From: Gammaproteobacteria bacterium
GTDB lineage: Bacteria; Pseudomonadota; Gammaproteobacteria; JAADGQ01
Reading direction: 5' to 3'
NCBI GenBank assembly: GCA_015490755.1
Contig: WFXF01000036.1
Coordinates: 1 to 35,145 of the forward strand
DNA length: 35,145 nucleotides
This document shows, in pieces, positions 1-13,498 of the stretch. The notes under the pieces are model-generated. The model saw nothing but the letters and a program-made list of their open reading frames with translations, did no database searches and was not told where the DNA came from. How positions within the stretch are numbered: the stretch's first letter is position 1; every line of letters starts with the position of its first letter. A program made the position numbers and the translations under genes.

Positions 1-503
1 AGTGAAATATTTCGCAGTAAAATAATTCCGGCCAAACCTGTAGCAATCAGGCAAAAAGCTAAAAATACTTTACCAAAACCGATATGAACCCATAACCAGG
101 GCGTATCAAATGTAGGGGGAAAATTGCTCGGCCTCGGCTCTAGCGTAAGCACCCACGCACCAAGTACCCACATAATGGGCAGTACCACTACAGCACTTGC
201 ACGCAGTATTGGAAAACGCCAATAGATCAAGGCATAAATTAACCCCAAGCTGAATAACTGGCTTACAATCAGTTCAAATAAATTCACAAAAGGGCCGTGA
301 CCTAAATGCAGCCAACGCACTGCCATCGCAACCACAAGCAGTAAAACACCAGCTGAAATAAAACCCAGCACAATCATTTCGTCACGCTGACTGGTCACTT
401 TTTGTGACTGAAAAACCACAGAGTAAATCGCCACAAATGTCGCTATTGCATAAGCTGCCAACCCTGCCCATAACCACGGAAGTTCACTTGCATACCCAAT
501 CAT
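1..503 (-). CDS. ccsA: CcsA/CcmC-type cytochrome c assembly protein (partial)
   Basis: This is the 5' part (about 167 codons) of an integral membrane haem-handling protein; the rest lies beyond the window. The start is the ATG at 503, one base after the resB stop codon, so the pair should be translated together. The visible protein has several hydrophobic helices separated by short loops. It contains the segment VRWLHLGHGPFVNLFE and a later WVHIGFGKVF, which place histidines and aromatics as in CcsA, the haem-presenting half of the System II (Ccs) ligation machine. In this family CcsA and ResB together move haem across the inner membrane and attach it to CXXCH motifs outside. The position directly after cytochrome genes fits a role in maturing them. 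A CcmC/CcmF-like System I protein is less likely because ResB is its neighbour. Confidence 0.85.
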   Translation of the reverse strand, partial: MIGYASELPWLWAGLAAYAIATFVAIYSVVFQSQKVTSQRDEMIVLGFISAGVLLLVVAMAVRWLHLGHGPFVNLFELIVSQLFSLGLIYALIYWRFPILRASAVVVLPIMWVLGAWVLTLEPRPSNFPPTFDTPWLWVHIGFGKVFLAFCLIATGLAGIILLRNIS

Positions 504-504
504 A

Positions 505-1455
505 TTAATTTTTATTAACCTTTTGCCAAAAATGAAACAACAATCCTATCACTCCAATTACTGATGTAAAAAACAGCCAATGTAACGTTGGATCATAAAA
601 CACTTTATAGCCCATCCAGCTGGTCATGTATTCATAACGCAATTGACCATCAGGCAGCTGGGCTATTTCTCCCGGTTGCAACTCAATACGTTGATCGTCA
701 CTATTCACGACCAATATACCTGTTGATTTGTTAGCATCCAGTACCCAGTCACTGCTTGCATCAATCCCGGTATCCAGCCGCAACCAGAATTTGATCTCTG
801 GTGCCCCGGGAGGTTGCCAGCGATTTGCCTGCCGGTAATCATAGAGTGGATAGGGCGGCATGTGCACTGTACCTGTGACTTTTTCGCCTTGATCGGGAAT
901 CCAAGTCATGATTGGAGCAAAACCTTTATGAAAACTGGTATAAAAACGGTAACCTTGTATTACTAATGGAACAGCGTCGCCAAATGTCACTGCCTCTCCT
1001 TCACCATCATCCGTCGGCAATATCACCTGATTACGTGTTGGACCGCGCGCAATACCCGGGGAATAGCTGATGGTATAGTCACCCTGAATAAACCGGATAT
1101 TGTCCAGAGCACTCTTGTTATGTAAAGGTCCTTTCCGGATATTAAATAGGTCTGAAGGATCAAAAGCTGTACCATTCAGCATTTCAACGTGTGCATCAAA
1201 GTGAGTCAGCCGACCAATGGCTGCAAGAATCACCACGCCCAGTAAACCGGCATGAAATACCAATAGGCCGTAACGGCGATTAATTCGAGGATTACTGATC
1301 ATGGCGCAAACCAGATTCAGCGCCAAAAGAGCCATGGGAACAACTAATACCCATACGGGCATATCGGCAGGATTGCCATAACTAAGAATTGCACCCCCAC
1401 CAAGAAGCAGCATTCCCACCAATGTCAAGCGGGAAGAGGCCAGCACCTTAATCAT
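505..1455 (-). CDS. resB: ResB/Ccs1-like cytochrome c biogenesis protein
   Basis: A 316-residue membrane protein with two or three N-terminal transmembrane helices (about residues 8-26, 34-52 and 62-82), a large extracytoplasmic domain, and a C-terminal helix near residues 293-310. This is a compact version of the ResB/Ccs1 layout. ResB is the partner of CcsA in System II cytochrome c maturation; together they deliver and ligate haem. The histidine-bearing segment after the third helix (LTHFDAHVEML) is in the expected place. The ATG at 1455 overlaps the stop of the 11-haem cytochrome by 4 bases (ATGA), which implies translational coupling. It is shorter than many ResB proteins, as seen for versions that sit inside multihaem cytochrome clusters. 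I infer that it serves the cytochromes of this locus. Confidence 0.85.
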   Translation of the reverse strand: MIKVLASSRLTLVGMLLLGGGAILSYGNPADMPVWVLVVPMALLALNLVCAMISNPRINRRYGLLVFHAGLLGVVILAAIGRLTHFDAHVEMLNGTAFDPSDLFNIRKGPLHNKSALDNIRFIQGDYTISYSPGIARGPTRNQVILPTDDGEGEAVTFGDAVPLVIQGYRFYTSFHKGFAPIMTWIPDQGEKVTGTVHMPPYPLYDYRQANRWQPPGAPEIKFWLRLDTGIDASSDWVLDANKSTGILVVNSDDQRIELQPGEIAQLPDGQLRYEYMTSWMGYKVFYDPTLHWLFFTSVIGVIGLLFHFWQKVNKN

Positions 1456-4061
1456 GGAATTGCGTTACACCCTTCACTGTTAGGATCAGGTACCTGGTTT
1501 GGACTGCCTTTTTGCCCCGTCATCCAGTTCAATCCTGATTCACCATTACCTGGCCCCCCGACTGAACCACAATTTTCAGGAAGCCATTCGCCACTTCGTG
1601 CGAAATTTTTTACCTTCAATACACTACCATTGTAATAGGGACCCTGGTAATAACGCTTCTCAGTATTATTTCTTACCTGAGTTCCCGCTGGCAATCCTGC
1701 TTCAGGCCCCACATCATTCAAGTTTGCAAGGAATGTTTTATTTTTCCAACCATGTGGCACGGCAACATGACACAATGAACAGCGAAAATTAGTCACTCCC
1801 GTCAACGCTTGTACATGTCCACTATGTAAATTTTTACTTTGAAAAGCAAAGTCGATACATTGGGAGTCAGTAATTGAAGCCGACTGTACCTGAAACCCGC
1901 TCTCACCAGACATTTCACCGTTTGAAAGATCAATAAATTTCCCATAGTCATTATAGTCATGGCACTTAAAACAGAGTGCATTTGGAGTCCCGCCACTTGC
2001 TCCATCGCCTCCGGTTTGATCATTCCAAGCACCTTTCAATATGAAATTATTATTCGAACCATGTGGCCCCCAGGCAAAGCCATTCTCTCCCCCCATCGGT
2101 TCGATAGAGCCCGGCGGTGTATCTGAACCATGGCAATCAGTGCAGTACATAGTCTGGTTGCCAACATTCTGATTAAAAGGAGGCAACCAGTTATCTTTAT
2201 TGGCTTTGCGAACTTCAGGAGTCCTTCCAGTATCTTTAACCACAGGGTGCCATGATCGATGATTATTGTTTGCGTAATCGGAGTGAGCGCCTGTAGGAGT
2301 TAAAGACGTACTTCCGCCCTTATGGTCATCAGGCGACTGGAATTCCATTGCTTGATCAGTGTATTGCTCCATTGCATTCGTACCGGGCGGTGTACCCCCT
2401 CGATAGCGCCCTCCTAACATTGGTGGAGTATCATAAGCATAAGTTGAATGGCATTTAAAACAGAGCTGATATTCACGAGTTAAATGTTCCGATTCAACTG
2501 CTTCACTGGCTCCAACGCCACCATCACCCCGCTTCACATCATAACCTGTTGCCAGCGAACCAAATGCAGTATTACCATATCTTGGCTCCACACCAAATAC
2601 ACCTCGCAATACGCCTGATGCAATATTTGTTGGCGCAATATGTGTGCCCCCCTCATCAGGAATGGCACCATCATCATTAAATTTACGTTTCTTCATAACA
2701 CGGTGTGGATTATGGCAATCTGTACACTCTGCATGACGGTTATTCAAGTCACCATATCCTAACAGTTCACGAGACTCTACAAAGTCTTTACCAAGTTGTG
2801 TTCCATTACCTGTGCCAATTGAATGAACCTCTACACCACCGGGCTGATCAGCGGTCGCAATCGGCATACGACGCAACATCGTTGTAAAATCAGTTTTTAC
2901 ATCAGGCACCTGAAAACCTGCACTCCCTTGCCCTTGCAAAACACCCCCATCTTTTGAATGACACATATAACATGTTTCTTCGATAGCCGGGTTACCACCC
3001 TGTTTGTATTTAGCCCCATTGAGCGCAACTTGCTCTGAACCATCAGTGCCTTCACGCAATATGCGGCGAGAACCTTCAACGGCATGTGGGTCATGGCAGT
3101 TCACACAAGCACCTTGCCACACCGGCATATTTTTCGGAAACTCACGTAACTCAGCGGCTGAATTTTCATACAGTTCATCGGCAACAAGAGGGTTGGCATG
3201 CGCTGAGTTCACCCAACCGGCTTTATTGTGACAACCCAAACAGATAATATCACCACGTTCATTAAAAGTGCCTTCAGTTGGAGGCACTTGTTGAAAACGA
3301 TTCACACGTAAAAACTTGGTACTGACTTCAGAAGCATCATCTGTGACATGCGGATCATGACAGCTGATACACTCCATCTGGTTATCTTCCAATGGTAGCG
3401 TTGGATGAGTTCCTGGAACACGCTCTGCAACCGATGCGCCAGGTTCATTTGGTGTACGTAGCTCACCATCTCGCACACTCAATGCACTGTCATATGTAAA
3501 AGAGATTGGGTGATCATTTGAAAGATCAACTCCGAGCCGCCGAGTATAGCCACTACCTGAGCCTTGCTCCCCACCACCAATCGAACCATCAGATTCGACT
3601 CCACTTAAAGAGATGGTCGTGTTTTCTTTGCGATTTAACACGTTCACTGAACCCACAGCAATCGTGCCATCATGACATGACAGACAAAGTTTTGATTTTC
3701 CTTCAGGCTGGCCTAAATCAGTCGCATCTAAAGAGCTGGAGCTATAAGGTATATAAGAGCTGGTAGATAGTGAACGGTTCCACAGCGGCGCTTTCGGTAT
3801 ATCTGATGCTCCATGTGGAGTATGGCAAAACACACAAACCTGTGATTCGTTCGAAGCCATCATATCCCGATTTTGATTACCAGGCAGTTGAGGAGGCAGT
3901 GATGCTGAAAAATTATGTTTTGTGTTTCTGACATCAGAGACGATTTCAGCATGTGATGAAACGGTAAAAAAAATTAAAATAAATAACAAAATTCCTTTTA
4001 TTGTTATTAAAAAAAAGGGATTAAATTGACCGAAAAATGGCAAGTCATTTTTTCTGTTCAC
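1452..4061 (-). CDS. 11-haem c-type cytochrome
   Basis: An 869-residue exported protein with 11 CXXCH haem-attachment motifs: CVFCH, CLSCH, CISCH, CLGCH, CVNCH, CYMCH, CTDCH, CFKCH, CTDCH, CFKCH and CSLCH. A hydrophobic signal segment covers about residues 14-38 and ends in VSSHAE. About 20 further histidines are available as distal ligands, so bis-His coordination of every haem is possible. The first ~290 residues repeat the module of the tetrahaem protein at 12665-13498: TKHN, CVFCHTPH, PLWNR, CLSCHDG, SNDHP, SCHDPH and FLRV appear in the same order. The start is a GTG at 4061 with only a weak ribosome site; no internal ATG precedes the signal peptide. The protein is probably periplasmic or on the outer surface as the large electron-carrying element of the locus. 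The substrate is unknown. No CXXCK catalytic motif was seen, which argues against a nitrite reductase of the NrfA type. Confidence 0.9.
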   Translation of the reverse strand: MNRKNDLPFFGQFNPFFLITIKGILLFILIFFTVSSHAEIVSDVRNTKHNFSASLPPQLPGNQNRDMMASNESQVCVFCHTPHGASDIPKAPLWNRSLSTSSYIPYSSSSLDATDLGQPEGKSKLCLSCHDGTIAVGSVNVLNRKENTTISLSGVESDGSIGGGEQGSGSGYTRRLGVDLSNDHPISFTYDSALSVRDGELRTPNEPGASVAERVPGTHPTLPLEDNQMECISCHDPHVTDDASEVSTKFLRVNRFQQVPPTEGTFNERGDIICLGCHNKAGWVNSAHANPLVADELYENSAAELREFPKNMPVWQGACVNCHDPHAVEGSRRILREGTDGSEQVALNGAKYKQGGNPAIEETCYMCHSKDGGVLQGQGSAGFQVPDVKTDFTTMLRRMPIATADQPGGVEVHSIGTGNGTQLGKDFVESRELLGYGDLNNRHAECTDCHNPHRVMKKRKFNDDGAIPDEGGTHIAPTNIASGVLRGVFGVEPRYGNTAFGSLATGYDVKRGDGGVGASEAVESEHLTREYQLCFKCHSTYAYDTPPMLGGRYRGGTPPGTNAMEQYTDQAMEFQSPDDHKGGSTSLTPTGAHSDYANNNHRSWHPVVKDTGRTPEVRKANKDNWLPPFNQNVGNQTMYCTDCHGSDTPPGSIEPMGGENGFAWGPHGSNNNFILKGAWNDQTGGDGASGGTPNALCFKCHDYNDYGKFIDLSNGEMSGESGFQVQSASITDSQCIDFAFQSKNLHSGHVQALTGVTNFRCSLCHVAVPHGWKNKTFLANLNDVGPEAGLPAGTQVRNNTEKRYYQGPYYNGSVLKVKNFARSGEWLPENCGSVGGPGNGESGLNWMTGQKGSPNQVPDPNSEGCNAIP

Positions 4062-4096: not shown

Positions 4097-5191
4097 TTAG
4101 TAAGTACTGCTGATCATATCTGACTCCAGATATTGGAAAATAGCAACTCGCCCGTTAAACATGTCTGCGATATAAATTCTGTTTTCTTGATCGATCCAGA
4201 CACCAGCAGGCAAATAAAATTGACCAACACCATGCCCACTACCTCCAATCGGTAATAACAGATCACCCTCCTGATTATAAACCAGCAAGTGATCGTAATA
4301 GGACTCCATTACATAAACATGACCTTTTGTATCGACAGCAACACCTTTTGGGCGAGGAAGATCACCCACATACAGACCGCGTTTACCAATAATTTTAAGT
4401 ACTTCGCCGCTTAGATCAAGCACTTTGATTCGTGAATTGAATGTATCGGTGATATAGAGCTGATCATTGAAAAGAGATAGATAAGTGGGAGTATTGAATG
4501 CGTCAATCGTTTCACCGTGATATCCCCACGTTTCAAGAAGCACACCATCAGCATCCAGCACTTTAATATTATGTTCGCGCACATCGGCCACATAAATTCG
4601 ACCCGTATTAACGTGACGAACCAAACCAACAGGACGCACTACAATCTCATCCGCAAAAACTTCTTGTGGACGACCCTCACGATCCAGACGAACGATCATC
4701 CCAAGCTCGGCATCGGCGACCAGAAAGCCCTCTTGACCATCTTCAACAATTGCAGAAGGGGCAATGAAACGACGATTCTTCTCTGCCATCTCCCATATAT
4801 CCAGCTTGCCATTTTTTTTATCAAAAACATAAATGGCCTGACGACTGACATCAGTCACCAATATTCGCCCATCACTATCAACCAATCCATTTTGAGGTCG
4901 TTGCAGAACTTTGGGCTGATATTTTTTTGAAGTGAGCCCAACCAGCCATTTAAAAGCCTGCGCTACAAAATTTTTCCTATCTTCACTTGTGGACTGAAAA
5001 TTCTCTTCACCGATCAATTCCCCGACATATCGATAACGTGCGACCTCAGGTTCCGTAGGCCAAACTTGTGGTGTGTTCTCATGCGGTTGAATAAAAGATA
5101 AGGTTGCAGGTGCTGTTGCACACCCGGACATAAGCAAAATGACTACAACAAATAAAACAACATAAAAAAGCCTCTTTTCAAGAAGTTTCAT
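4097..5191 (-). CDS. NHL-repeat (beta-propeller) lipoprotein
   Basis: A 364-residue protein with a lipoprotein signal: a hydrophobic N-terminus ends in LLMSGC at about residue 24. The rest is a run of NHL-type repeats, recognised by recurring elements such as GLVDSDGRILVTDVS, GVAVDTKGHVYVMES and GVWIDQENRIYIADM, each about 45 residues apart. This is typical of a six-bladed propeller. Such propellers usually bind proteins or carbohydrates rather than catalyse. The ATG overlaps the stop of the preceding NHL gene by one base (TAATG), so the two are coupled. The gene is followed 35 bases later by the 11-haem cytochrome. I infer an envelope scaffold or docking factor for the cytochromes; the sequence does not give a specific partner. 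Confidence 0.85.
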   Translation of the reverse strand: MKLLEKRLFYVVLFVVVILLMSGCATAPATLSFIQPHENTPQVWPTEPEVARYRYVGELIGEENFQSTSEDRKNFVAQAFKWLVGLTSKKYQPKVLQRPQNGLVDSDGRILVTDVSRQAIYVFDKKNGKLDIWEMAEKNRRFIAPSAIVEDGQEGFLVADAELGMIVRLDREGRPQEVFADEIVVRPVGLVRHVNTGRIYVADVREHNIKVLDADGVLLETWGYHGETIDAFNTPTYLSLFNDQLYITDTFNSRIKVLDLSGEVLKIIGKRGLYVGDLPRPKGVAVDTKGHVYVMESYYDHLLVYNQEGDLLLPIGGSGHGVGQFYLPAGVWIDQENRIYIADMFNGRVAIFQYLESDMISSTY

Positions 5192-6315
5192 TATTCAGAC
5201 AAAGGCTCCAGCAACCCTTCAGGAACAATACGAAGCACTTGAATACGCTTATTTAAGTTATCCGTCACATACAAGAACCCCTCATCCAGCCACATATCAG
5301 TAATCCTGTTAAATCGACCCGGGCCATTACCTGTACCTCCAAATGTAGAAATCAACTCACCTTTTCTATAAATTTTTATTTTGTTATCAAATGAATCACT
5401 GACAAAGGCTTGATTATCCTCATCAATAACAATGGCCGTAGGAAATATCAAAGTATTCTCTTGAAAGGCATAGCGAAAACGACTATCCAGATTAACAACT
5501 TGAGCTCTTGTACCAATGCGAGATGTAACATAAACACCTTCGTTACCTATGGCAAGAGCAGTCACCCCCCTGAATTCACCCTGTTTTTTTCCACGAGCAC
5601 CGATTGCATCAAGAAGGGTCCCTTGGCGATCAAAAACCAGAATATAGTCGTACGAACCATCCGCAATGAGTACAAAACCTCGATGCTCATCAACAGTAAT
5701 GCCGACAGGCCTGGACATATTCAAATAATTTTCAAATACCTGTATTAGTTTTCCTGACTGGCTAAAGTGTAATACACGGCCTGCACTGGAATCAGTGAGA
5801 TAAAAAGAGAGGTCAGGTGCAACATAAATATCAGTAATTTCCTGTTTGATATGCTTAGCTACACCAGATATTAATTGAAGCTGATCCAGATCATTATCAT
5901 AGAGATAAACCCCCTTTTCTGCTTCATCAACAATATAAACATATTTACCTCGTGCAGCAGTTGCAACAGGGTTTTTAAGCTGTTGTCTGGTTAAGCCTGT
6001 TAATCTATTTCCAACAGCTCCACCATCAATAGTCGACCAATTAATCAAAATTGATTCATTCGCTAAAGAAGGGAGCTCTAAACCACCCTCATCATCTAGC
6101 AATAGCTCAGGTGAATCCGCCAGTTTATCAAGTACACCTGAGTGTGAAGGAGGAGCGGGCACAGAGTCAGGTACAGCAGAAATAGCCCATGCAGGTGGAG
6201 GCTTAGGCTCAGACGCACACCCTGCAAAAGCAAGCAGTGTGACGAACAAAGCGCTAAAACGAAACAACCCTTCTATTGTCGTAACAACTTGGTTTTTCGA
6301 GGTTCGGAATGACAT
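5191..6315 (-). CDS. NHL-repeat (beta-propeller) lipoprotein
   Basis: About 374 residues, with a lipobox ending in LLAFAGC near residue 33 followed by a proline-rich linker, then NHL-type repeats (GITVDEHRGFVLIADG, AIVIDEDNQAFVSDS and DMWLDEGFLYVTDN are examples). A TTG at 6324 also opens the frame, but the ATG at 6315 lies behind a GTGGG stretch and gives the more usual N-terminus, so I chose it. It still overlaps the upstream trihaem cytochrome gene by 43 bases, an unusually long overlap within this operon. The protein is a paralogue in architecture of the next gene but the two are clearly divergent. Tandem NHL proteins beside multihaem cytochromes suggest an assembly or anchoring function in the outer envelope; this is inference. 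Confidence 0.82.
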   Translation of the reverse strand: MSFRTSKNQVVTTIEGLFRFSALFVTLLAFAGCASEPKPPPAWAISAVPDSVPAPPSHSGVLDKLADSPELLLDDEGGLELPSLANESILINWSTIDGGAVGNRLTGLTRQQLKNPVATAARGKYVYIVDEAEKGVYLYDNDLDQLQLISGVAKHIKQEITDIYVAPDLSFYLTDSSAGRVLHFSQSGKLIQVFENYLNMSRPVGITVDEHRGFVLIADGSYDYILVFDRQGTLLDAIGARGKKQGEFRGVTALAIGNEGVYVTSRIGTRAQVVNLDSRFRYAFQENTLIFPTAIVIDEDNQAFVSDSFDNKIKIYRKGELISTFGGTGNGPGRFNRITDMWLDEGFLYVTDNLNKRIQVLRIVPEGLLEPLSE

Positions 6316-6896
6316 CGCCCACAATTCATTGTTGGTGGAAAAGCAACTTTACCATGACAAACCCCACAGTACTTCCCTTGCATAATTGCGGACATTGTCA
6401 CAGGATTTGCACCCTTTTCAGGAATAAATATTTTGGGGTGACAATTCGCACAAGTCAGCCACTCTGTATGCTGTTTATGTGGATAGCGCACAACAGGCAT
6501 AGACCCTGTCTTATCAAAAACAATATCAAAATCTACAACCGTCATTTTTTCTTTGCCAGAACCCTCTCTTCCCATGCGTGGATTAATCAGGCCCTTTTCA
6601 ATAGCTTGCACCCAGTCTGTTATTCCAGCAGAGTCACGAGGAAAATCTTTCATCGCTTCGACGGGTGCCTGCAAATTTTTTACAGCACCATTCGAAGCAT
6701 CATGAATACCATCCTTTTCAACGGGAACAATTTCAGCTTCTGTCTGAAAATGTGAACCGCGCTCAGGCAGAACAGGAACCAACTTACTTTTTTCATCTGC
6801 AATAGCAAGTCCACTTCCCATTCCGAAAACAGTAGCACTCACTAAAAGGACACTGGAAACAAGATTTCCAACACACTTTCTAAGGTCATATCTCAT
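6273..6896 (-). CDS. Trihaem c7-type cytochrome
   Basis: A 207-residue exported protein. The N-terminal signal (about residues 10-33) ends in GLAIADE. Three CXXCH motifs lie in the C-terminal third: CANCH, CGVCH and CGRCH, with the conserved distal histidine pair PHKQHTEW just before the first haem. This is the c7/c3-like trihaem fold used by small periplasmic electron shuttles. Residues 60-140 carry an extra conserved region (GIHDASNGAV, then a helical stretch) that is shared with the paralogue at 8578-9243. The two proteins match nearly residue for residue around the haems. It probably passes electrons between inner-membrane donors and the outer-membrane parts of this locus. It follows the cupredoxin lipoprotein gene by 34 bases. 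Confidence 0.87.
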   Translation of the reverse strand: MRYDLRKCVGNLVSSVLLVSATVFGMGSGLAIADEKSKLVPVLPERGSHFQTEAEIVPVEKDGIHDASNGAVKNLQAPVEAMKDFPRDSAGITDWVQAIEKGLINPRMGREGSGKEKMTVVDFDIVFDKTGSMPVVRYPHKQHTEWLTCANCHPKIFIPEKGANPVTMSAIMQGKYCGVCHGKVAFPPTMNCGRCHSEPRKTKLLRQ

Positions 6897-6930: not shown

Positions 6931-8409
6931 CTATGAACCTACTCCGATCATTCGTAAAGCACGAATCAAGTTATCTGTTGCTGCCTGCAAAGCAAGTATG
7001 CCATTGCTATAATCACCTTTTTTCCCAAGCTCAATACCCTCCTTTTTTATAGATTTGCTCTTTTTGACAAAGTTATCCATTAATCTCAAGGTACCTGCAG
7101 AAGGTTGTTTTTGATCAATTCCTAATGGAATCAGTTCTTCATAACTTAGGTGACGCGCCAGTTCATACTCATACTCTTCTTTGGGGGTTTCAAAGTTTTT
7201 ATCGTAAACCACTGTTTTGGCGTGAAGTATTTTATTAAGAGAGCCCGCGATTATTTTTTGAGCCTCCTGTAAATCTTTATTTGCTGCCGCATAATCCCCC
7301 GAACTTGCCAACTTTTCAGCCTCTTCAACTAATGCTGAAAACCGACCTTCATCCATTTTATCAGCACTTTTAGCACCTTTCACATGGGTCTTATATGTTT
7401 TTTCATATTTATTCACTTCATCCAAAAGCTCTGCATACCGTGCCTCCTGGTCAATAACAGATTCAGTACTTGGCACCATGCGCGTTGCATCATTCATTGT
7501 ACGTAATGATAAATCGACTTTATCCAGTGCCTCAGAATTTTTACCCGCTTTCAACAAGGTGCGAGATTCGTCCAGATAGTCTTGAGCCTTTTGCATGAGG
7601 CCTTTTGCCTCATCATGGCCGCTTGCAGCAATGCGCTGTGCGGACTTTGATGAATCACTCAACATCATGTTTGCAAAGTTAATTTTCTGTTTAACCTGAT
7701 TGGAAGAAACAGATCTTTTTACAGGTTTACCGACAATAGGGCTTTTACGTTTTGACAAAGCATCAATGTCAATTCTTTCACCTTTATCAACTACGTAAAT
7801 CTTGCCGCCCATATACTTATGGTTAACACATTGATAATAAAGTACGTCAGGCGTTTTTTCATTGGGAGTCAAACTCACTTTTCCTATATAAGTAAACTGC
7901 CCTGTTACACCCTCTTTTTCTGTAATCGCGCCTGCACCCCATCCTTTTGGATTAGTCGTCAAATAAAAGTCGTGAGTCACCCCTGTATCAATATCAAAGG
8001 TGTAATTTTGACCCCGCTCAACAACAAAGTCTTTTCCAGGAACACCATTCACAGTGAATCCTATATCAGTCCCCTGTTGATATTTTGGATGACTGGAATC
8101 TTTTTTGACTGAGCGAACAATGAATGTATTTTTATCTGCAGGCAGCACTACTTCTTTTGCTTTTACATCCTCTACGACCAAGCCACCACTCTCTTCTTTC
8201 ACCGCATCGTTAAGTGGAATTACAACAGCTTCTTCAATTTTCTTTTCAGCTTGAGGTTGTACTGATTTAACAACATCAACCGCTTGTTCTTTTAAATCAC
8301 TACCCATTTCAGGCAGTACTTCTTCGGACTTTTTAATACCAGAGCCACACGCGGCCACGCTAAAAGTCATTGCTACCAAGACGCTCTTTTGCAACAGTTT
8401 TTTATTCAT
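6931..8409 (-). CDS. Lipoprotein with cupredoxin domain and helical C-terminal domain
   Basis: A 492-residue lipoprotein; the signal ends in SVAAC with the lipid-bearing Cys at residue 21. Residues ~30-90 form a charged, low-complexity tether. Residues ~94-208 are a cupredoxin-like beta domain with a complete type 1 copper ligand set: His146 (GVTHDFY), then Cys194, His197 and Met200 in YYQCVNHKYMGG. Residues ~240-490 are alpha-helical and charged, resembling TPR-like or coiled helical hairpins (SEALDKVDLSLRT, GDYAAANKDLQEAQ, GDYSNGILALQAA). The ribosome site GGAGG precedes the ATG well. A one-electron blue copper carrier fused to a helical scaffold, between cytochrome genes, suggests an electron-transfer bridge tethered to a membrane. 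I do not know a named family with this domain order, and the helical part has no function I can assign. Confidence 0.8.
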   Translation of the reverse strand: MNKKLLQKSVLVAMTFSVAACGSGIKKSEEVLPEMGSDLKEQAVDVVKSVQPQAEKKIEEAVVIPLNDAVKEESGGLVVEDVKAKEVVLPADKNTFIVRSVKKDSSHPKYQQGTDIGFTVNGVPGKDFVVERGQNYTFDIDTGVTHDFYLTTNPKGWGAGAITEKEGVTGQFTYIGKVSLTPNEKTPDVLYYQCVNHKYMGGKIYVVDKGERIDIDALSKRKSPIVGKPVKRSVSSNQVKQKINFANMMLSDSSKSAQRIAASGHDEAKGLMQKAQDYLDESRTLLKAGKNSEALDKVDLSLRTMNDATRMVPSTESVIDQEARYAELLDEVNKYEKTYKTHVKGAKSADKMDEGRFSALVEEAEKLASSGDYAAANKDLQEAQKIIAGSLNKILHAKTVVYDKNFETPKEEYEYELARHLSYEELIPLGIDQKQPSAGTLRLMDNFVKKSKSIKKEGIELGKKGDYSNGILALQAATDNLIRALRMIGVGS

Positions 8410-8577: not shown

Positions 8578-9243
8578 TCATTTCCAGGGATTTTTAAGTG
8601 ATGCCTGACTCATGGGTGGTTCCCAATCAGCAGGTTTTGGTTTTGAATGGCATAAACCACATGATTTTGTGGTCACTGGAAAAGATACTTTGCCATGACA
8701 TACACCACAATCCTTACCTAGCAAAATCGAAGACATATTAAATTGGTTTGCATTTTGCTGTGGAATGAAAATTGTTGGATGACAATTCGCGCAAGCCAGC
8801 CACTCAGTATGCTGACGATGAGGAAAAATAACATCAGGCACTGAAGATTTGACTTCACGCACAATATCCATATCCATTACAAACGCTTCTTCTGCAGGGT
8901 TGATTCGATCCCAACGAGGGTTAATCTTCCCTTCTTCCAAAGTTTTCACCCAATCCACATAATTGCCAAACTTGCTTGTTACAAAACCACTAAAAGCTTC
9001 TTTAGGCGGCTGCAGAACATGCGTACTATCATTTGCAGGATCATGAATGCCATCTTCTGATGGAGCAGCATTAATATTAGTCTCTTTTTTAAGGTTACGG
9101 TTAAAAGTGTTAACCGCACTTACAGAAGCGACGTTTATTGTGTCAGACTGGGCAATGACTGCATCTTCTGCTTGCACTGCACTCAATGGAGCAACCGCAA
9201 CTAAAGCGAAAGCTAGAGAAATCGATTTTGTTTTAAAATTCAT
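8578..9243 (-). CDS. Trihaem c7-type cytochrome
   Basis: About 221 residues from the ATG at 9243, chosen because AGGAG lies 7 bases before it and the protein then begins with a clean signal peptide (MNFKTKSISLAFALVAVAP...VQA). Upstream in-frame codons add only a charged leader. Three haem motifs, CANCH, CGVCH and CGLCH, follow the distal-ligand segment PHRQHTEW. The protein is a close paralogue of the one at 6273-6896: PHxQHTEWLxCANCHP, IFIP, GKxCGVCHGKV and the middle GIHD region are shared. A duplication inside the locus is the simple explanation. The role is probably a periplasmic electron shuttle. Its stop is followed by a 168-base gap before the cupredoxin gene. Confidence 0.87.
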   Translation of the reverse strand: MNFKTKSISLAFALVAVAPLSAVQAEDAVIAQSDTINVASVSAVNTFNRNLKKETNINAAPSEDGIHDPANDSTHVLQPPKEAFSGFVTSKFGNYVDWVKTLEEGKINPRWDRINPAEEAFVMDMDIVREVKSSVPDVIFPHRQHTEWLACANCHPTIFIPQQNANQFNMSSILLGKDCGVCHGKVSFPVTTKSCGLCHSKPKPADWEPPMSQASLKNPWK

Positions 9244-9253
9244 AACCCTCTCC

Positions 9254-9682
9254 TTATTTGCTTTCCAGCGATTTATACGCAGGAGCAACTAAACGTTGCA
9301 CTGTGCTACCATGAAAATGCGTTGGTGTACCAGGGTTACCTGAATGACACATATTACAGTTTTCTACAGACCACGCGACTTCGCCATTGTGGCAAGCTCC
9401 ACAGAACTGACCATCAATAATTTTTGCCATCGTAATTTTGTTACCGCCCGCTTTAAATTCAAAACCCAAATCGGCATGACATACTTTGCAACGAAAACGA
9501 ATGCGATGAAACCAGTGTGGAAAAACAGCAGGACGCATACCCGCTGCGTCAGAATAGTTATTTATAACCACATCGCCATATTCTGCATGAACATTCTGAG
9601 AACCTAACATCAGAACTAATCCAGCCAATATCCCGACACAAGCAAATTTATTTATAAATTTGCGCAAGGGATTGAGTATCAT
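9254..9682 (-). CDS. Small trihaem c7-type cytochrome
   Basis: About 142 residues from the ATG at 9682; an excellent ribosome site (GAGGAGGT, 5 bases away) decides this start over a codon seven residues upstream. The signal peptide ends in QNVHAEYGD. Three motifs, CKVCH, CGACH and CNMCH, follow the distal segment FPHWFHRIRF. It shares the FPHxxH...CxxCH...GxxCGxCH...CxxCHS spacing with the two larger trihaem proteins but lacks their N-terminal extension. It is thus a minimal c7-type domain. It is followed after 10 bases by the larger paralogue, so both are likely made together. It is probably a soluble periplasmic carrier. Confidence 0.87.
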   Translation of the reverse strand: MILNPLRKFINKFACVGILAGLVLMLGSQNVHAEYGDVVINNYSDAAGMRPAVFPHWFHRIRFRCKVCHADLGFEFKAGGNKITMAKIIDGQFCGACHNGEVAWSVENCNMCHSGNPGTPTHFHGSTVQRLVAPAYKSLESK

Positions 9683-9781
9683 TGAACACCTCCTCGTCAA
9701 CAAAATAAAAAGTAATTATTAAAAAACACACTTACCCTTTTACAAACAGGTTACCAAATATTCCTTGTTGTATAAAAGCTG

Positions 9782-9894: not shown

Positions 9895-11661
9895 TTAAAA
9901 TCGTCGAGTTACCCGAACCAGCATTAAATTGCTACGATCACCTTCACGATCAATGATTCGATAACTTAAACTGCAATCAAGCAAACCGATACTGTAGTCC
10001 AGGCGATTATCCCACTCTGAACGATCCACACCATTGCTTAATGACACCTTTGAAATATTCAGATCAGAACGAAACCCTAGATTGGTCACTCCAAAAATGC
10101 GTTGGTGATAATAACCGATTTGGCCTGATGTTGTCTCTATATTCTCCAAATCGCCATAACGTGTACGCTGTGCCGTCATACTCGCATTCAACTCACTTCG
10201 GCGATTTAGAGGAAGCACTCCTGACAATTGAAAGTTAAATAACTGTTGTGCATTATCTTGATCATCAATATCACGTCGATCCTCTATGAACAGTCGCGCA
10301 TAAGCTGAAATCCATTTTACCGACTTGTTCCAACCGAAGCTTGCTGAATGGTCAATTTTTGTGACTGTGTCACTTTGATCACCAGACAGCTTGTTTTGAT
10401 TAACTGCTTGACTTAAATTCAGATTAAGGCGAGACGACAGAGGTGCAATCCATACTCTTTCCATATTATGTCCAATACGCCCCAAAACACTATTTTTTAC
10501 TTCATCAACCTCATCAGAACGTTGTATTGAACCTGAAGCATACCACTGATAAGTAACATCATAAAAAGGCTCATATAGATCTGATTGATATAACCCACCC
10601 ATACGTAGATTATTAAAATCTTTTTGAGTCTGGCCATCATCATTGGTGCCAACACTTGCGCCAACATCACCTCTGAAGTTTTTAGTAAACTGATAAATTG
10701 CGCCTCCACGAACAGTTGTTGAAAAAACGCCACCCGCATTATCAGTTATATCCGTATCAATATCCGCAATCCTCACACCACCATTCACGGTGAGCAAGCG
10801 ACTGTTTGATCGCCATAATGCAAAGCTGGACATCTGTATGGTATTCACTGTTGTATCATCAAATTCAACCAATGTTGGCTGCTGCAACGAAGTATCCACA
10901 TTGGACAGGCTAAACATCGAATCAATCGTCAACGACTCTGTAGGTCTCCAGAAATGATCGACATCAAGCAAACGATTTTCCGTCTTTCTTTTTTCTGTTG
11001 TTGCAAAACTTGTCGACTGACTGTTAAGTGTTGTCGTTAAAGTCTGGTTTGGAAAGCGTAATCTCGCTTCCAACCCCACATTTTGATCGTCATAACGGTC
11101 GCTATCTGAAGTCCATCGCCCCTTACTGAAACGTCCTTGAAAGCGGTGATTTTCAGCCGTAACCCATGATTGACGAAGATCAAGGCGGTTTGTTTTATAG
11201 TTTTGCCCTGAATCAACCAGCAAATTATTGTCACTTTGAGTATCGACACGACTATCACTTGCGTGAAAAACCAGTGAAAAAGGTGCTCGACTCCGAGGCA
11301 GAACATTCAAGTTAAACTCACCCGTTATAATTTTTGCATCCTTGCCTTGCTGCCCAATACTATAATCATAATCACTGCTATCAAGTGTTACACTCAATCG
11401 CCCACCCGCAGTAGCAAACCAGGGTTGCCACAAATAGGATGAACCTTTTATTGAGCCTTCCAACTGATTACTAATCACTTTATCACCATCTGTTTGAGCA
11501 TGAGAACGGTAATTGTAACCAACACTTCCTGACAAATTCAAAGCAGCGGCTCCTATGGCCAGACTACCCCATAAAATAGTGAACAATAAAACAGACAACA
11601 GGGCGATACCACTCAATAATGGCTTAAGCGCCTTTCTGCTCACTATTGAATTTATCGCCAT
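9895..11661 (-). CDS. Outer-membrane beta-barrel protein of the cytochrome locus
   Basis: A 588-residue protein with a signal segment (about residues 16-40, ending near GAAALNLSG) and then alternating short polar/hydrophobic strands throughout. It ends in VRVTRRF, a terminal phenylalanine typical of barrels inserted by BamA. Repeated aromatic-girdle strands such as VGYNYRS, VTYQWYASGS and LDYSIGLLDCSLSY support a large barrel of perhaps 20 or more strands. There is no CXXCH. Its size and position among cytochrome genes resemble the porins of porin-cytochrome conduits, but I see no MtrB-type CXXC near the N-terminus and do not assign it to that family. The gene starts 8 bases after the prolyl isomerase stop, without a strong ribosome site, so coupling is likely. 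Confidence 0.8.
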   Translation of the reverse strand: MAINSIVSRKALKPLLSGIALLSVLLFTILWGSLAIGAAALNLSGSVGYNYRSHAQTDGDKVISNQLEGSIKGSSYLWQPWFATAGGRLSVTLDSSDYDYSIGQQGKDAKIITGEFNLNVLPRSRAPFSLVFHASDSRVDTQSDNNLLVDSGQNYKTNRLDLRQSWVTAENHRFQGRFSKGRWTSDSDRYDDQNVGLEARLRFPNQTLTTTLNSQSTSFATTEKRKTENRLLDVDHFWRPTESLTIDSMFSLSNVDTSLQQPTLVEFDDTTVNTIQMSSFALWRSNSRLLTVNGGVRIADIDTDITDNAGGVFSTTVRGGAIYQFTKNFRGDVGASVGTNDDGQTQKDFNNLRMGGLYQSDLYEPFYDVTYQWYASGSIQRSDEVDEVKNSVLGRIGHNMERVWIAPLSSRLNLNLSQAVNQNKLSGDQSDTVTKIDHSASFGWNKSVKWISAYARLFIEDRRDIDDQDNAQQLFNFQLSGVLPLNRRSELNASMTAQRTRYGDLENIETTSGQIGYYHQRIFGVTNLGFRSDLNISKVSLSNGVDRSEWDNRLDYSIGLLDCSLSYRIIDREGDRSNLMLVRVTRRF

Positions 11662-11669
11662 ACAGTTAT

Positions 11670-12659
11670 TTATTCGATGCTAGCCAAAACCGACTTATTC
11701 GTTGTTATTGGTGTCGTATTACGCAATTTATTAATAAACTTGCTGAGCGCAAGCTCGCGATTTTCTCGTAACCATAAATCGCTTGCCCGCTCTTTAACGT
11801 CCACAAATTTATTTAACCTGGATGAACGTTTATCAAGCAATTTCATAATAGCCACCCCTTGTAATAAAACCACAGGTTTAGAGACATCACCACGAGCCAT
11901 TCCATCCAATACGCTCTGTGCTTGTGGTGCCAACATCCCTTTATGTATATATCCCAAATCCCCTCCATTAGCCGCTGACTCATGCTTAGAGTAGCGGCGA
12001 GCCAGATCTGAAAAATCAGCACCGCCCTTAATTTTAGAAACCAGGCTTTCGGCTTTTGAAAATTCGGACTCCCATACCTCACCTTTTGATGAAGGCGCCA
12101 CCTTTAACAAAATCAATGAAATATGAAACTGCTCCGGTGTTGTAAATTTATCTGTATTTTGCTTGTAATAACTCAGAATCTCCTCTTCCTTTACTGCAAC
12201 ACCATCCTTAATTTTCAAGCTCATCTGATCAATCAGACTCTTTTCTTTAAGTTCTTGAGCGACTGACTTTAACCATACATCGCTCGTTGATTGCCAACCC
12301 CTGGCATTAATGCGTCTCTTCCATTGCTGGACTTCGCTACTGACCCAGCGCTCATCTGGTTTCAGACCACGTTTGATCGACTCTTGAAGCAACAACCTTT
12401 TATCAACCATATCGGCTAATACTTCCTGACGTAGAGCTATTTTTTTTTCTGCGGAAGCCGAGCCATGATAAAATTTACGACGAAGCTCCGCATGAAAAGC
12501 GGCTTTAAACTGCAACACTGTGATTTTCTCATCACCCACTGTTGCAACTATTGATGCATCATTGATAATAGTATCAGCCGCAATATCACTGACATTTAAA
12601 AAAAACATCATAAAAAAACCTACAATAGGTATAACTGTTTTTTTTAAACTTAGCATCAT
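11670..12659 (-). CDS. Parvulin-type (PpiC/SurA-like) peptidyl-prolyl isomerase
   Basis: A 329-residue exported foldase. The N-terminal hydrophobic segment (about residues 9-27) is followed by a SurA-like helical chaperone region (VATVGDEKITVLQFKAAF, then EVLADMVDKRLLLQE). A parvulin domain lies at about residues 175-275; characteristic elements are FHISLILLKV, KIKGGADFSDLARRYS and AANGGDLGYIHKGML. Such proteins isomerise prolyl bonds and escort barrels or secreted proteins through the periplasm. It lies between the tetrahaem cytochrome (5 bases upstream) and the beta-barrel (8 bases downstream). I infer a dedicated chaperone for one or both. Prolyl isomerases of this type also accompany multihaem cytochrome genes in Geobacter-like bacteria, as far as I recall. 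Confidence 0.88.
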   Translation of the reverse strand: MMLSLKKTVIPIVGFFMMFFLNVSDIAADTIINDASIVATVGDEKITVLQFKAAFHAELRRKFYHGSASAEKKIALRQEVLADMVDKRLLLQESIKRGLKPDERWVSSEVQQWKRRINARGWQSTSDVWLKSVAQELKEKSLIDQMSLKIKDGVAVKEEEILSYYKQNTDKFTTPEQFHISLILLKVAPSSKGEVWESEFSKAESLVSKIKGGADFSDLARRYSKHESAANGGDLGYIHKGMLAPQAQSVLDGMARGDVSKPVVLLQGVAIMKLLDKRSSRLNKFVDVKERASDLWLRENRELALSKFINKLRNTTPITTNKSVLASIE

Positions 12660-12664
12660 GAGTA

Positions 12665-13498
12665 TTATTTAGTGTGACAAGCCAGACAAACAGTGCTTCC
12701 AGAAGGCGTAACACGCAAAAAAGTAGGGTTTTCATCGACATGAGGATCATGACAAGAAGCGCATTCAACATACGGCTGAGGTTCACCTAACCATCTACCA
12801 CGAGTGCCCACACGTGTATAGAGCTTCATATCCGTTCTTTCATACCCACTCGTCCCACCTTCCGTTGCGGTATTCACCCACCAGACACGTGTCGTCCCGT
12901 TTATTTCAGTAACAGGGGGCTTAAAATCTCTATCAACCCCTGGGCCTTGAGGATTTGCATTAGAGTAGCCACCTCCAGCATATTGAACACCCACCGGATG
13001 ATCATTGGTTAAATCTTTGCCAAGGTTCGTTATAACATCAACTGGAATCGTACCATCGGTATTTGCAACCAACCCACTCCACGACCCAGCAGAATAGGCC
13101 GGCACATCCAGACCGGAGCCTGGTTCATTGATGACAGAATCCATGGCTTGCGAACCATCATGGCAAGACAAACATGCCAAAGAGACCGATCCAATTGCCT
13201 CTACACCACCATCAAGTGTCGTAGTTCCCGTTTGATCATACGTCGCAAAAGCACCCGAGTTCGTTAAATTGCGATTCCAAAGAGGCACTGCAGCTTCGCG
13301 ATTAGCCGCATGGGGTGTATGACAAAACACACAAACTTCTGCTGTGCCACTAAAGTTGCTGGTTCCACCAATGCCGGTACTACCTAAGTTATGCTTGGTA
13401 TTTGCAATACCCGCACTACTCAAATGACTTGAAACAAGCAATATTCCAAACAACAAAAAGGAAGCTCTTTGTGGCTTAATAATTTGATCTATCCGCAA
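12665..13498 (-). CDS. Tetrahaem c-type cytochrome, possible filament-forming (OmcE-like) type
   Basis: A 277-residue protein and the first gene of the locus. The start is a TTG at 13498 with AAGGTG 7 bases upstream; no ATG fits before the signal peptide (about residues 12-32, LLFGILLVSSHLSSAGIA). Four haem motifs are present: CVFCH (56-60), CLSCH, CASCH and CLACH. After the signal peptide there are exactly four other histidines: TKHN, CHTPH, NDHP and CHDPH. That is one distal ligand per haem. The spacing TKHN-CVFCHTPH-PLWNR-CLSCHDG-NDHPV-CHDPH-FLR-CLACH is also found at the start of the 11-haem protein. The tetrahaem layout resembles the extracellular OmcE type of Geobacter; that assignment is inference from memory, not from alignment. 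The chain ends three residues after the last CXXC (HTK), so nothing extends beyond the final haem. Confidence 0.85.
   Translation of the reverse strand: MRIDQIIKPQRASFLLFGILLVSSHLSSAGIANTKHNLGSTGIGGTSNFSGTAEVCVFCHTPHAANREAAVPLWNRNLTNSGAFATYDQTGTTTLDGGVEAIGSVSLACLSCHDGSQAMDSVINEPGSGLDVPAYSAGSWSGLVANTDGTIPVDVITNLGKDLTNDHPVGVQYAGGGYSNANPQGPGVDRDFKPPVTEINGTTRVWWVNTATEGGTSGYERTDMKLYTRVGTRGRWLGEPQPYVECASCHDPHVDENPTFLRVTPSGSTVCLACHTK

Follow-up and report, generated by a model that had tools for sequence, protein, structure and literature searches.

Does a gammaproteobacterium encode the subunit of an OmcE-type cytochrome filament, and could such a filament carry electrons into the cell? The question is raised by a gene for a putatively secreted tetrahaem cytochrome in the window, by which we mean the whole stretch of 35,145 nucleotides that was analysed (contig WFXF01000036.1 of the Gammaproteobacteria bacterium assembly GCA_015490755.1). 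Most cytochrome filaments known to date are from organisms that have been studied as electron exporters, and the uptake of electrons by autotrophs and iron oxidisers (Tenderiales, Gallionella, Leptothrix) has so far been explained by porin complexes alone. Here we assign the gene, uetA, to the OmcE family and consider, with moderate confidence, that its product most likely builds up, as the repeating unit, an extracellular haem filament for electron uptake.

UetA shares its haem order and ligands with OmcE

The uetA product is 277 residues long and begins with a TTG codon, the likely start given that a genome of the same genus is 90% identical from residue 1 and that no ATG lies nearby. By inspection, residues 12-29 form a hydrophobic, signal-like segment, with a similar segment in the relatives. 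The mature part carries four CXXCH motifs (C56-H60, C109-H113, C246-H250 and C271-H275) and exactly four spare histidines, H36 (NTKH), H63 (CHTPH), H167 (NDHP) and H253 (CHDPH), so that the translated open reading frame bears out this count from a preliminary description of the DNA. The same description had placed three of the four at motif-linked positions, which has to be amended, as two stand in CXXCHxxH and the other two belong to the equally conserved NTKH and NDHP. It was right that the chain ends directly after the last haem: the C-terminus reads CLACHTK, and all 94 relatives likewise end exactly two residues past the last CXXCH. A scan around uetA for promoters and terminators gave three promoter-like sites against 2.6 expected, and no terminators.

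Among all solved structures, the best phmmer match of UetA is the Geobacter OmcE filament (7tfs, E=9e-27), followed by 9yuq (E=1e-22), a putative multihaem cytochrome with 16 identical chains in one entry, a number that is the only hint of a filament in its case; a profile built from 58 relatives gave 1.7e-42 and 1.4e-40 for the two, respectively. The homology to OmcE spans the full mature chain, and in both OmcE and 9yuq every haem motif and the four distal histidines align with those of UetA. As the alignment with OmcE that had been proposed agrees in haem order, distal histidines and C-terminal end, the suggestion of an OmcE-like subunit outside the Desulfuromonadota holds at the sequence level. 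The OmcS filament protein (6ef8) gave only a short motif match with the family profile (E=0.004), and UetA, with its four haems, falls outside the OmcS family, which is defined by six haems and OmcS homology. The archaeal ECN proteins (AvECN, PcECN; 8e5f/8e5g) were absent among the profile matches at E<=0.01, in a comparison at the sequence level.

Across 91 aligned relatives, no haem-motif residue varies, nor do H36, H167 and H253, and 87 of the sequences retain H63; judged by this invariance and by the common chain end, the pattern is far beyond chance. UetA is about 45 residues longer than OmcE, the extra residues lying between NDHP and haem 3, and the two proteins sit on separate branches of the family tree. 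An AlphaFold2 model of mature UetA, made with an alignment of 57 relatives, reached a mean pLDDT of only 58, and no geometry was therefore taken from it; its sole long stretch modelled with confidence is the insert, which is beta-rich and might alter the subunit interface. A Foldseek search with this low-confidence model returned nothing significant and is hence uninformative.

Table 1. Positions and supporting evidence for the features of the uet locus and for related genes; positions are those of the window unless preceded by another label
Feature	Position	Strand	Evidence or remark
uetA: putatively secreted tetrahaem cytochrome of the OmcE family, proposed filament subunit	12665..13498	minus	ORF, homology search, alignment
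H36 of NTKH, distal haem ligand	13391..13393	minus	invariant, 91/91 relatives
Haem motif 1, CVFCH	13319..13333	minus	invariant in 91 aligned relatives
H63 of CHTPH, proposed subunit-bridging ligand	13310..13312	minus	87/91 relatives; absent only in specialised paralogues
Haem motif 2, CLSCH; counterpart of the haem ligated in trans in OmcE	13160..13174	minus	PMC12203936 for OmcE haem 2
H167 of NDHP, distal haem ligand	12998..13000	minus	invariant, 91/91 relatives
Haem motif 3, CASCH	12749..12763	minus	invariant in 91 aligned relatives
H253 of CHDPH, distal haem ligand	12740..12742	minus	invariant, 91/91 relatives
Haem motif 4, CLACH; 2 residues from chain end	12674..12688	minus	end position same in 94/94 relatives
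uetB: periplasmic PpiC/SurA-type prolyl isomerase	11670..12659	minus	Pfam PF13616, PF00639, SurA_N
uetC: large outer-membrane beta-barrel, 28 predicted strands	9895..11661	minus	AF2 pLDDT 92; Foldseek best match MtrB 6r2q_B
uetD: trihaem c7-type cytochrome	9254..9703	minus	TIGR04257, PF14522
uetE: trihaem c7-type cytochrome	8578..9288	minus	TIGR04257, PF14522
uetF: putative lipoprotein	6931..8409	minus	lipobox by eye; PF25489 match
uetG: trihaem c7-type cytochrome	6273..6896	minus	TIGR04257, PF14522
uetH: NHL-repeat lipoprotein	5191..6324	minus	PF01436
uetI: NHL-repeat lipoprotein	4097..5191	minus	PF01436
uetJ: undecahaem cytochrome, 11 CXXCH	1452..4061	minus	motif count
N-terminal OmcE/UetA-like tetrahaem module of uetJ, all 4 distal His	3216..3926	minus	blastp, phmmer
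ResB-like cytochrome c maturation protein, overlaps uetJ	505..1455	minus	PF05140
Probable CcsA-like cytochrome c maturation protein, runs off window	3..503	minus	open frame; identified by eye only
Pentahaem OmcE-like paralogue without the CHTPH His	own genome C88:34294-35034	minus	search of genome; orthologues L103-L132
Second H63-less tetrahaem paralogue group	L051:7375-8160, L053:7555-8490, L061:3415-4440		upstream of UetA, NHL-repeat gene between

uetA opens a conserved electron-uptake operon

The name uet stands for undecahaem electron transfer. Judged by gene content and order, uetA stands at the head of the already described uetABCDEFGHIJ (Tenderiales) cluster, since the tetrahaem protein, prolyl isomerase, barrel, three trihaem proteins, two NHL-repeat proteins and undecahaem protein of the published gene list (PMC10734462) are all present in the conserved order, including the isomerase and barrel that the preliminary description had seen beside the gene and that Pfam matches and a confident model now support (Table 1). 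The cluster was named in Ca. Tenderia electrophaga (PMC10734462), occurs whole or in part in relatives of Gallionella and Leptothrix (PMC10734462, PMC13386937, PMC12575090), and has been described as a system for extracellular electron uptake, from electroautotrophs and iron oxidisers (PMC10734462, PMC12575090). In our searches the A-J order recurred in dozens of gammaproteobacterial loci and, in more divergent form, in magnetococcal, beta- and alphaproteobacterial ones, with UetB or UetC directly downstream of UetA in 71 of 74 places; a Tenderia MAG carries orthologues, its UetA matching that of the window at 69%. Culturable species with uetA include Leptothrix discophora, Sphaerotilus mobilis, Ferrimonas sediminicola and Sedimenticola hydrogenitrophicus. 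One UetA member from a contig labelled Caldilineales (Chloroflexota; JAGFJG010000022.1) has the same N-terminus as two gammaproteobacterial members and was set aside as probably mis-binned.

RuBisCO is encoded in the host genome, and the host is therefore probably autotrophic; taken together with the occurrence of the cluster in electroautotrophs and iron oxidisers, this suggests that electrons probably flow inward. The ResB-like gene and the CcsA-like frame (3-1455, minus strand) make up a System II haem-attachment pair, apparently dedicated to the uet operon, and ResB adjoins uetJ in three further genomes.

H63 and the paralogues that have lost it

The subunit-bridging residue of OmcS, which we take to be His16, is the last histidine of its first CHTMH motif and the counterpart of UetA H63, and by analogy with it H63 would be the bridging ligand of UetA. 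In the solved filaments, OmcE haem 2 (PMC12203936) and OmcS haem 5 (PMC9473688) are each ligated by a histidine of the adjacent subunit, and we infer filament formation for UetA.

Unlike H36, H167 and H253, which are essentially never lost, H63 is missing from specialised paralogues, and only from these, with other histidines gained instead. The host's own genome encodes a pentahaem paralogue that lacks only H63 among the four UetA distal histidines; all 30 fetched orthologues have CH[LIV]P[PDEA] in its place and an NHL-repeat gene, for a lipoprotein, directly downstream, and the 26 that were aligned have five haem motifs with exactly five invariant spare histidines, three of them the equivalents of H36, H167 and H253. 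Given this consistency, a reading of the pentahaem proteins as degenerate copies was ruled out. In a second, tetrahaem group from three genomes, only the CHTPH histidine has been lost, its place being taken by Q, R and M. The pentahaem and tetrahaem proteins form separate groups in the tree, with supports of 1.0 and 0.967, from which it follows that H63 has been lost at least twice. As the missing residue matches the subunit-bridging histidine of OmcS, the pentahaem protein is probably unable to continue the chain, and the H63-less paralogues would fit a gain of ligands within the chain together with the loss of the one that reaches outward.

In a sample of 369 gammaproteobacterial genomes plus that of the window, strong pentahaem matches were found in 32 genomes and strong UetA matches in 39, with both in 31 (Fisher p=1e-36, a value inflated by kinship among the genomes, which nevertheless span many families); the single pentahaem genome lacking a strong UetA has a partial UetA match. 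Near the pentahaem gene (L094:8292-9035) lies another redox surface cluster (L094:2122-4490), made up of two tandem beta-propeller-like lipoprotein or anchored genes together with those for a thioredoxin-like protein and a small cytochrome c.

UetA might instead be a tetrahaem cytochrome that works as a separate molecule, soluble or attached to the surface; in touch with minerals, Fe(II) or an electrode, it would pass electrons to UetJ or UetC without polymerising, with H63 acting in cis. A polymer is not required for an extracellular location, the uet papers call UetA simply an extracellular tetrahaem cytochrome (PMC10734462), and homologues of filament cytochromes need not polymerise, the paralogues OmcT and OmcJ not being known as filament formers (PMC12977616). 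However, UetA keeps all the ligands of a proven filament subunit, including the H63 that was lost in specialised paralogues, and OmcE, which likewise has four spare histidines for its four haems, uses one of them in trans (PMC12203936), which makes a discrete UetA conceivable but unlikely.

An OmcE module in UetJ and a possible base for a proposed wire

The undecahaem UetJ starts with a full OmcE-type module that matches UetA at 7e-21 (blastp) and OmcE 7tfs at 3e-20 (phmmer) and is followed by seven more haems, so that the porin-associated cytochrome and the proposed wire subunit are homologous. The H63 equivalent is kept in all 28 UetJ-type modules of the tree set.

Such a module would also suit an arrangement in which UetA is a fixed part of a porin-cytochrome complex, with one or a few copies forming a short stack with UetJ inside the UetC barrel or on it. 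The barrel is wide and finds its best Foldseek match in MtrB, UetJ has been called a porin-associated cytochrome (PMC10734462), and the module would allow a single UetA to form a hetero-stack with UetJ; yet the ligands of UetA are self-complementary, and nothing visible except a separate end piece would halt the stack at one copy, for which reason we give this arrangement little credence. That UetA is an ordinary periplasmic multihaem c-type cytochrome without any role outside the cell is hardly believable, even if Pfam gives only the general doubled-CXXCH and other short haem-motif families, as among solved structures it is closest to the OmcE filament and 9yuq, its operon holds a barrel and periplasmic c7 proteins, and the cluster has been described as one for extracellular electron uptake.

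For the preferred reading, that of UetA as a filament subunit, we propose the following mechanism. UetB would fold UetA in the periplasm, and UetC, with its 28 predicted strands, would be the passage of UetA, or of its base, through the outer membrane. H36, H167 and H253 would be the three in-chain distal ligands of each subunit, and H63, beside haem 1, would reach into the neighbour and complete the ligation of haem 2 there, as in OmcE and OmcS. With H63 pointing out and haem 2 awaiting the H63 of a neighbour, UetA would be self-complementary and could thus polymerise without separate glue. UetJ might serve as the base, at which the first UetA docks by the same ligand exchange, since it carries the same OmcE module, H63 included, together with seven further haems. 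The trihaem UetD, UetE and UetG would then carry electrons between this base and the inner membrane. A further, tentative and on balance doubtful proposal is that of a wire in three pieces, with UetA as the link, UetJ as the anchored base, its seven extra haems lying near the outer-membrane barrel, and the NHL-linked, H63-less pentahaem protein as an end piece or off-ramp with no ligand to donate onward, the whole drawing electrons inward for CO2 fixation.

Implications and comparison with known systems

If UetA polymerises, the OmcE architecture is also in use for taking up electrons, by autotrophs and iron oxidisers (Tenderiales, Gallionella, Leptothrix), and bacteria that draw electrons inward may grow the same kind of wire that Geobacter uses for outward electrons. 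Should the three-piece proposal hold as well, the start, middle and end of this wire would each be a defined piece, an arrangement that to our knowledge is known for no cytochrome filament yet. The assembly and anchoring of cytochrome wires are largely unknown (PMC12307469), and the OmcE module in UetJ and the H63-less paralogue represent two specific, testable candidates for the anchoring and the ending of a wire, respectively.

The uet cluster itself, filaments in archaea (PMC12307469) and OmcE homologues beyond Geobacter were already known, the last having been reported outside the Desulfuromonadota in general terms (Baquero 2023, as cited in PMC12307469). As far as the literature searched shows, the placement of UetA in the OmcE family, the OmcE module in UetJ and the co-occurrence of UetA with an H63-less pentahaem protein appear to be new: no link between UetA and OmcE, no mention of the module or of a separate pentahaem paralogue and no filament from any uet organism was found in it, the founding uet paper (Eddie 2022) lying outside its scope, so that priority is uncertain.

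The OmcE filament of Geobacter sulfurreducens (7tfs) is like UetA in the order of its four CXXCH motifs, in its NTKH, CHTPH, NDHP and CHxxH ligands and in its chain end. UetA differs in sitting in a uet operon of a gammaproteobacterium with RuBisCO, in its extra residues and in its separate tree branch. The uet cluster of Ca. Tenderia electrophaga and Gallionella (PMC10734462) has the same gene set, gene order and 11-haem UetJ as the locus described here. With the OmcS filament of Geobacter, for which an eight-gene maturation cluster is described (Shen 2025, as cited in PMC12977616), the proposed UetA wire would share dedicated maturation or secretion genes and ligation by a histidine of the neighbouring subunit, whereas UetA has four haems in place of six and a homology limited to the haem motifs (6ef8, E=0.004). 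Finally, the MtrCAB complex of Shewanella provides the best Foldseek match of UetC in MtrB, although many large barrels tie with MtrB by VIA-align Z. UetC has 28 predicted strands and not the 26 of MtrB, and its cytochrome partners at the uet locus comprise trihaem carriers, an undecahaem protein and a subunit of the OmcE type.
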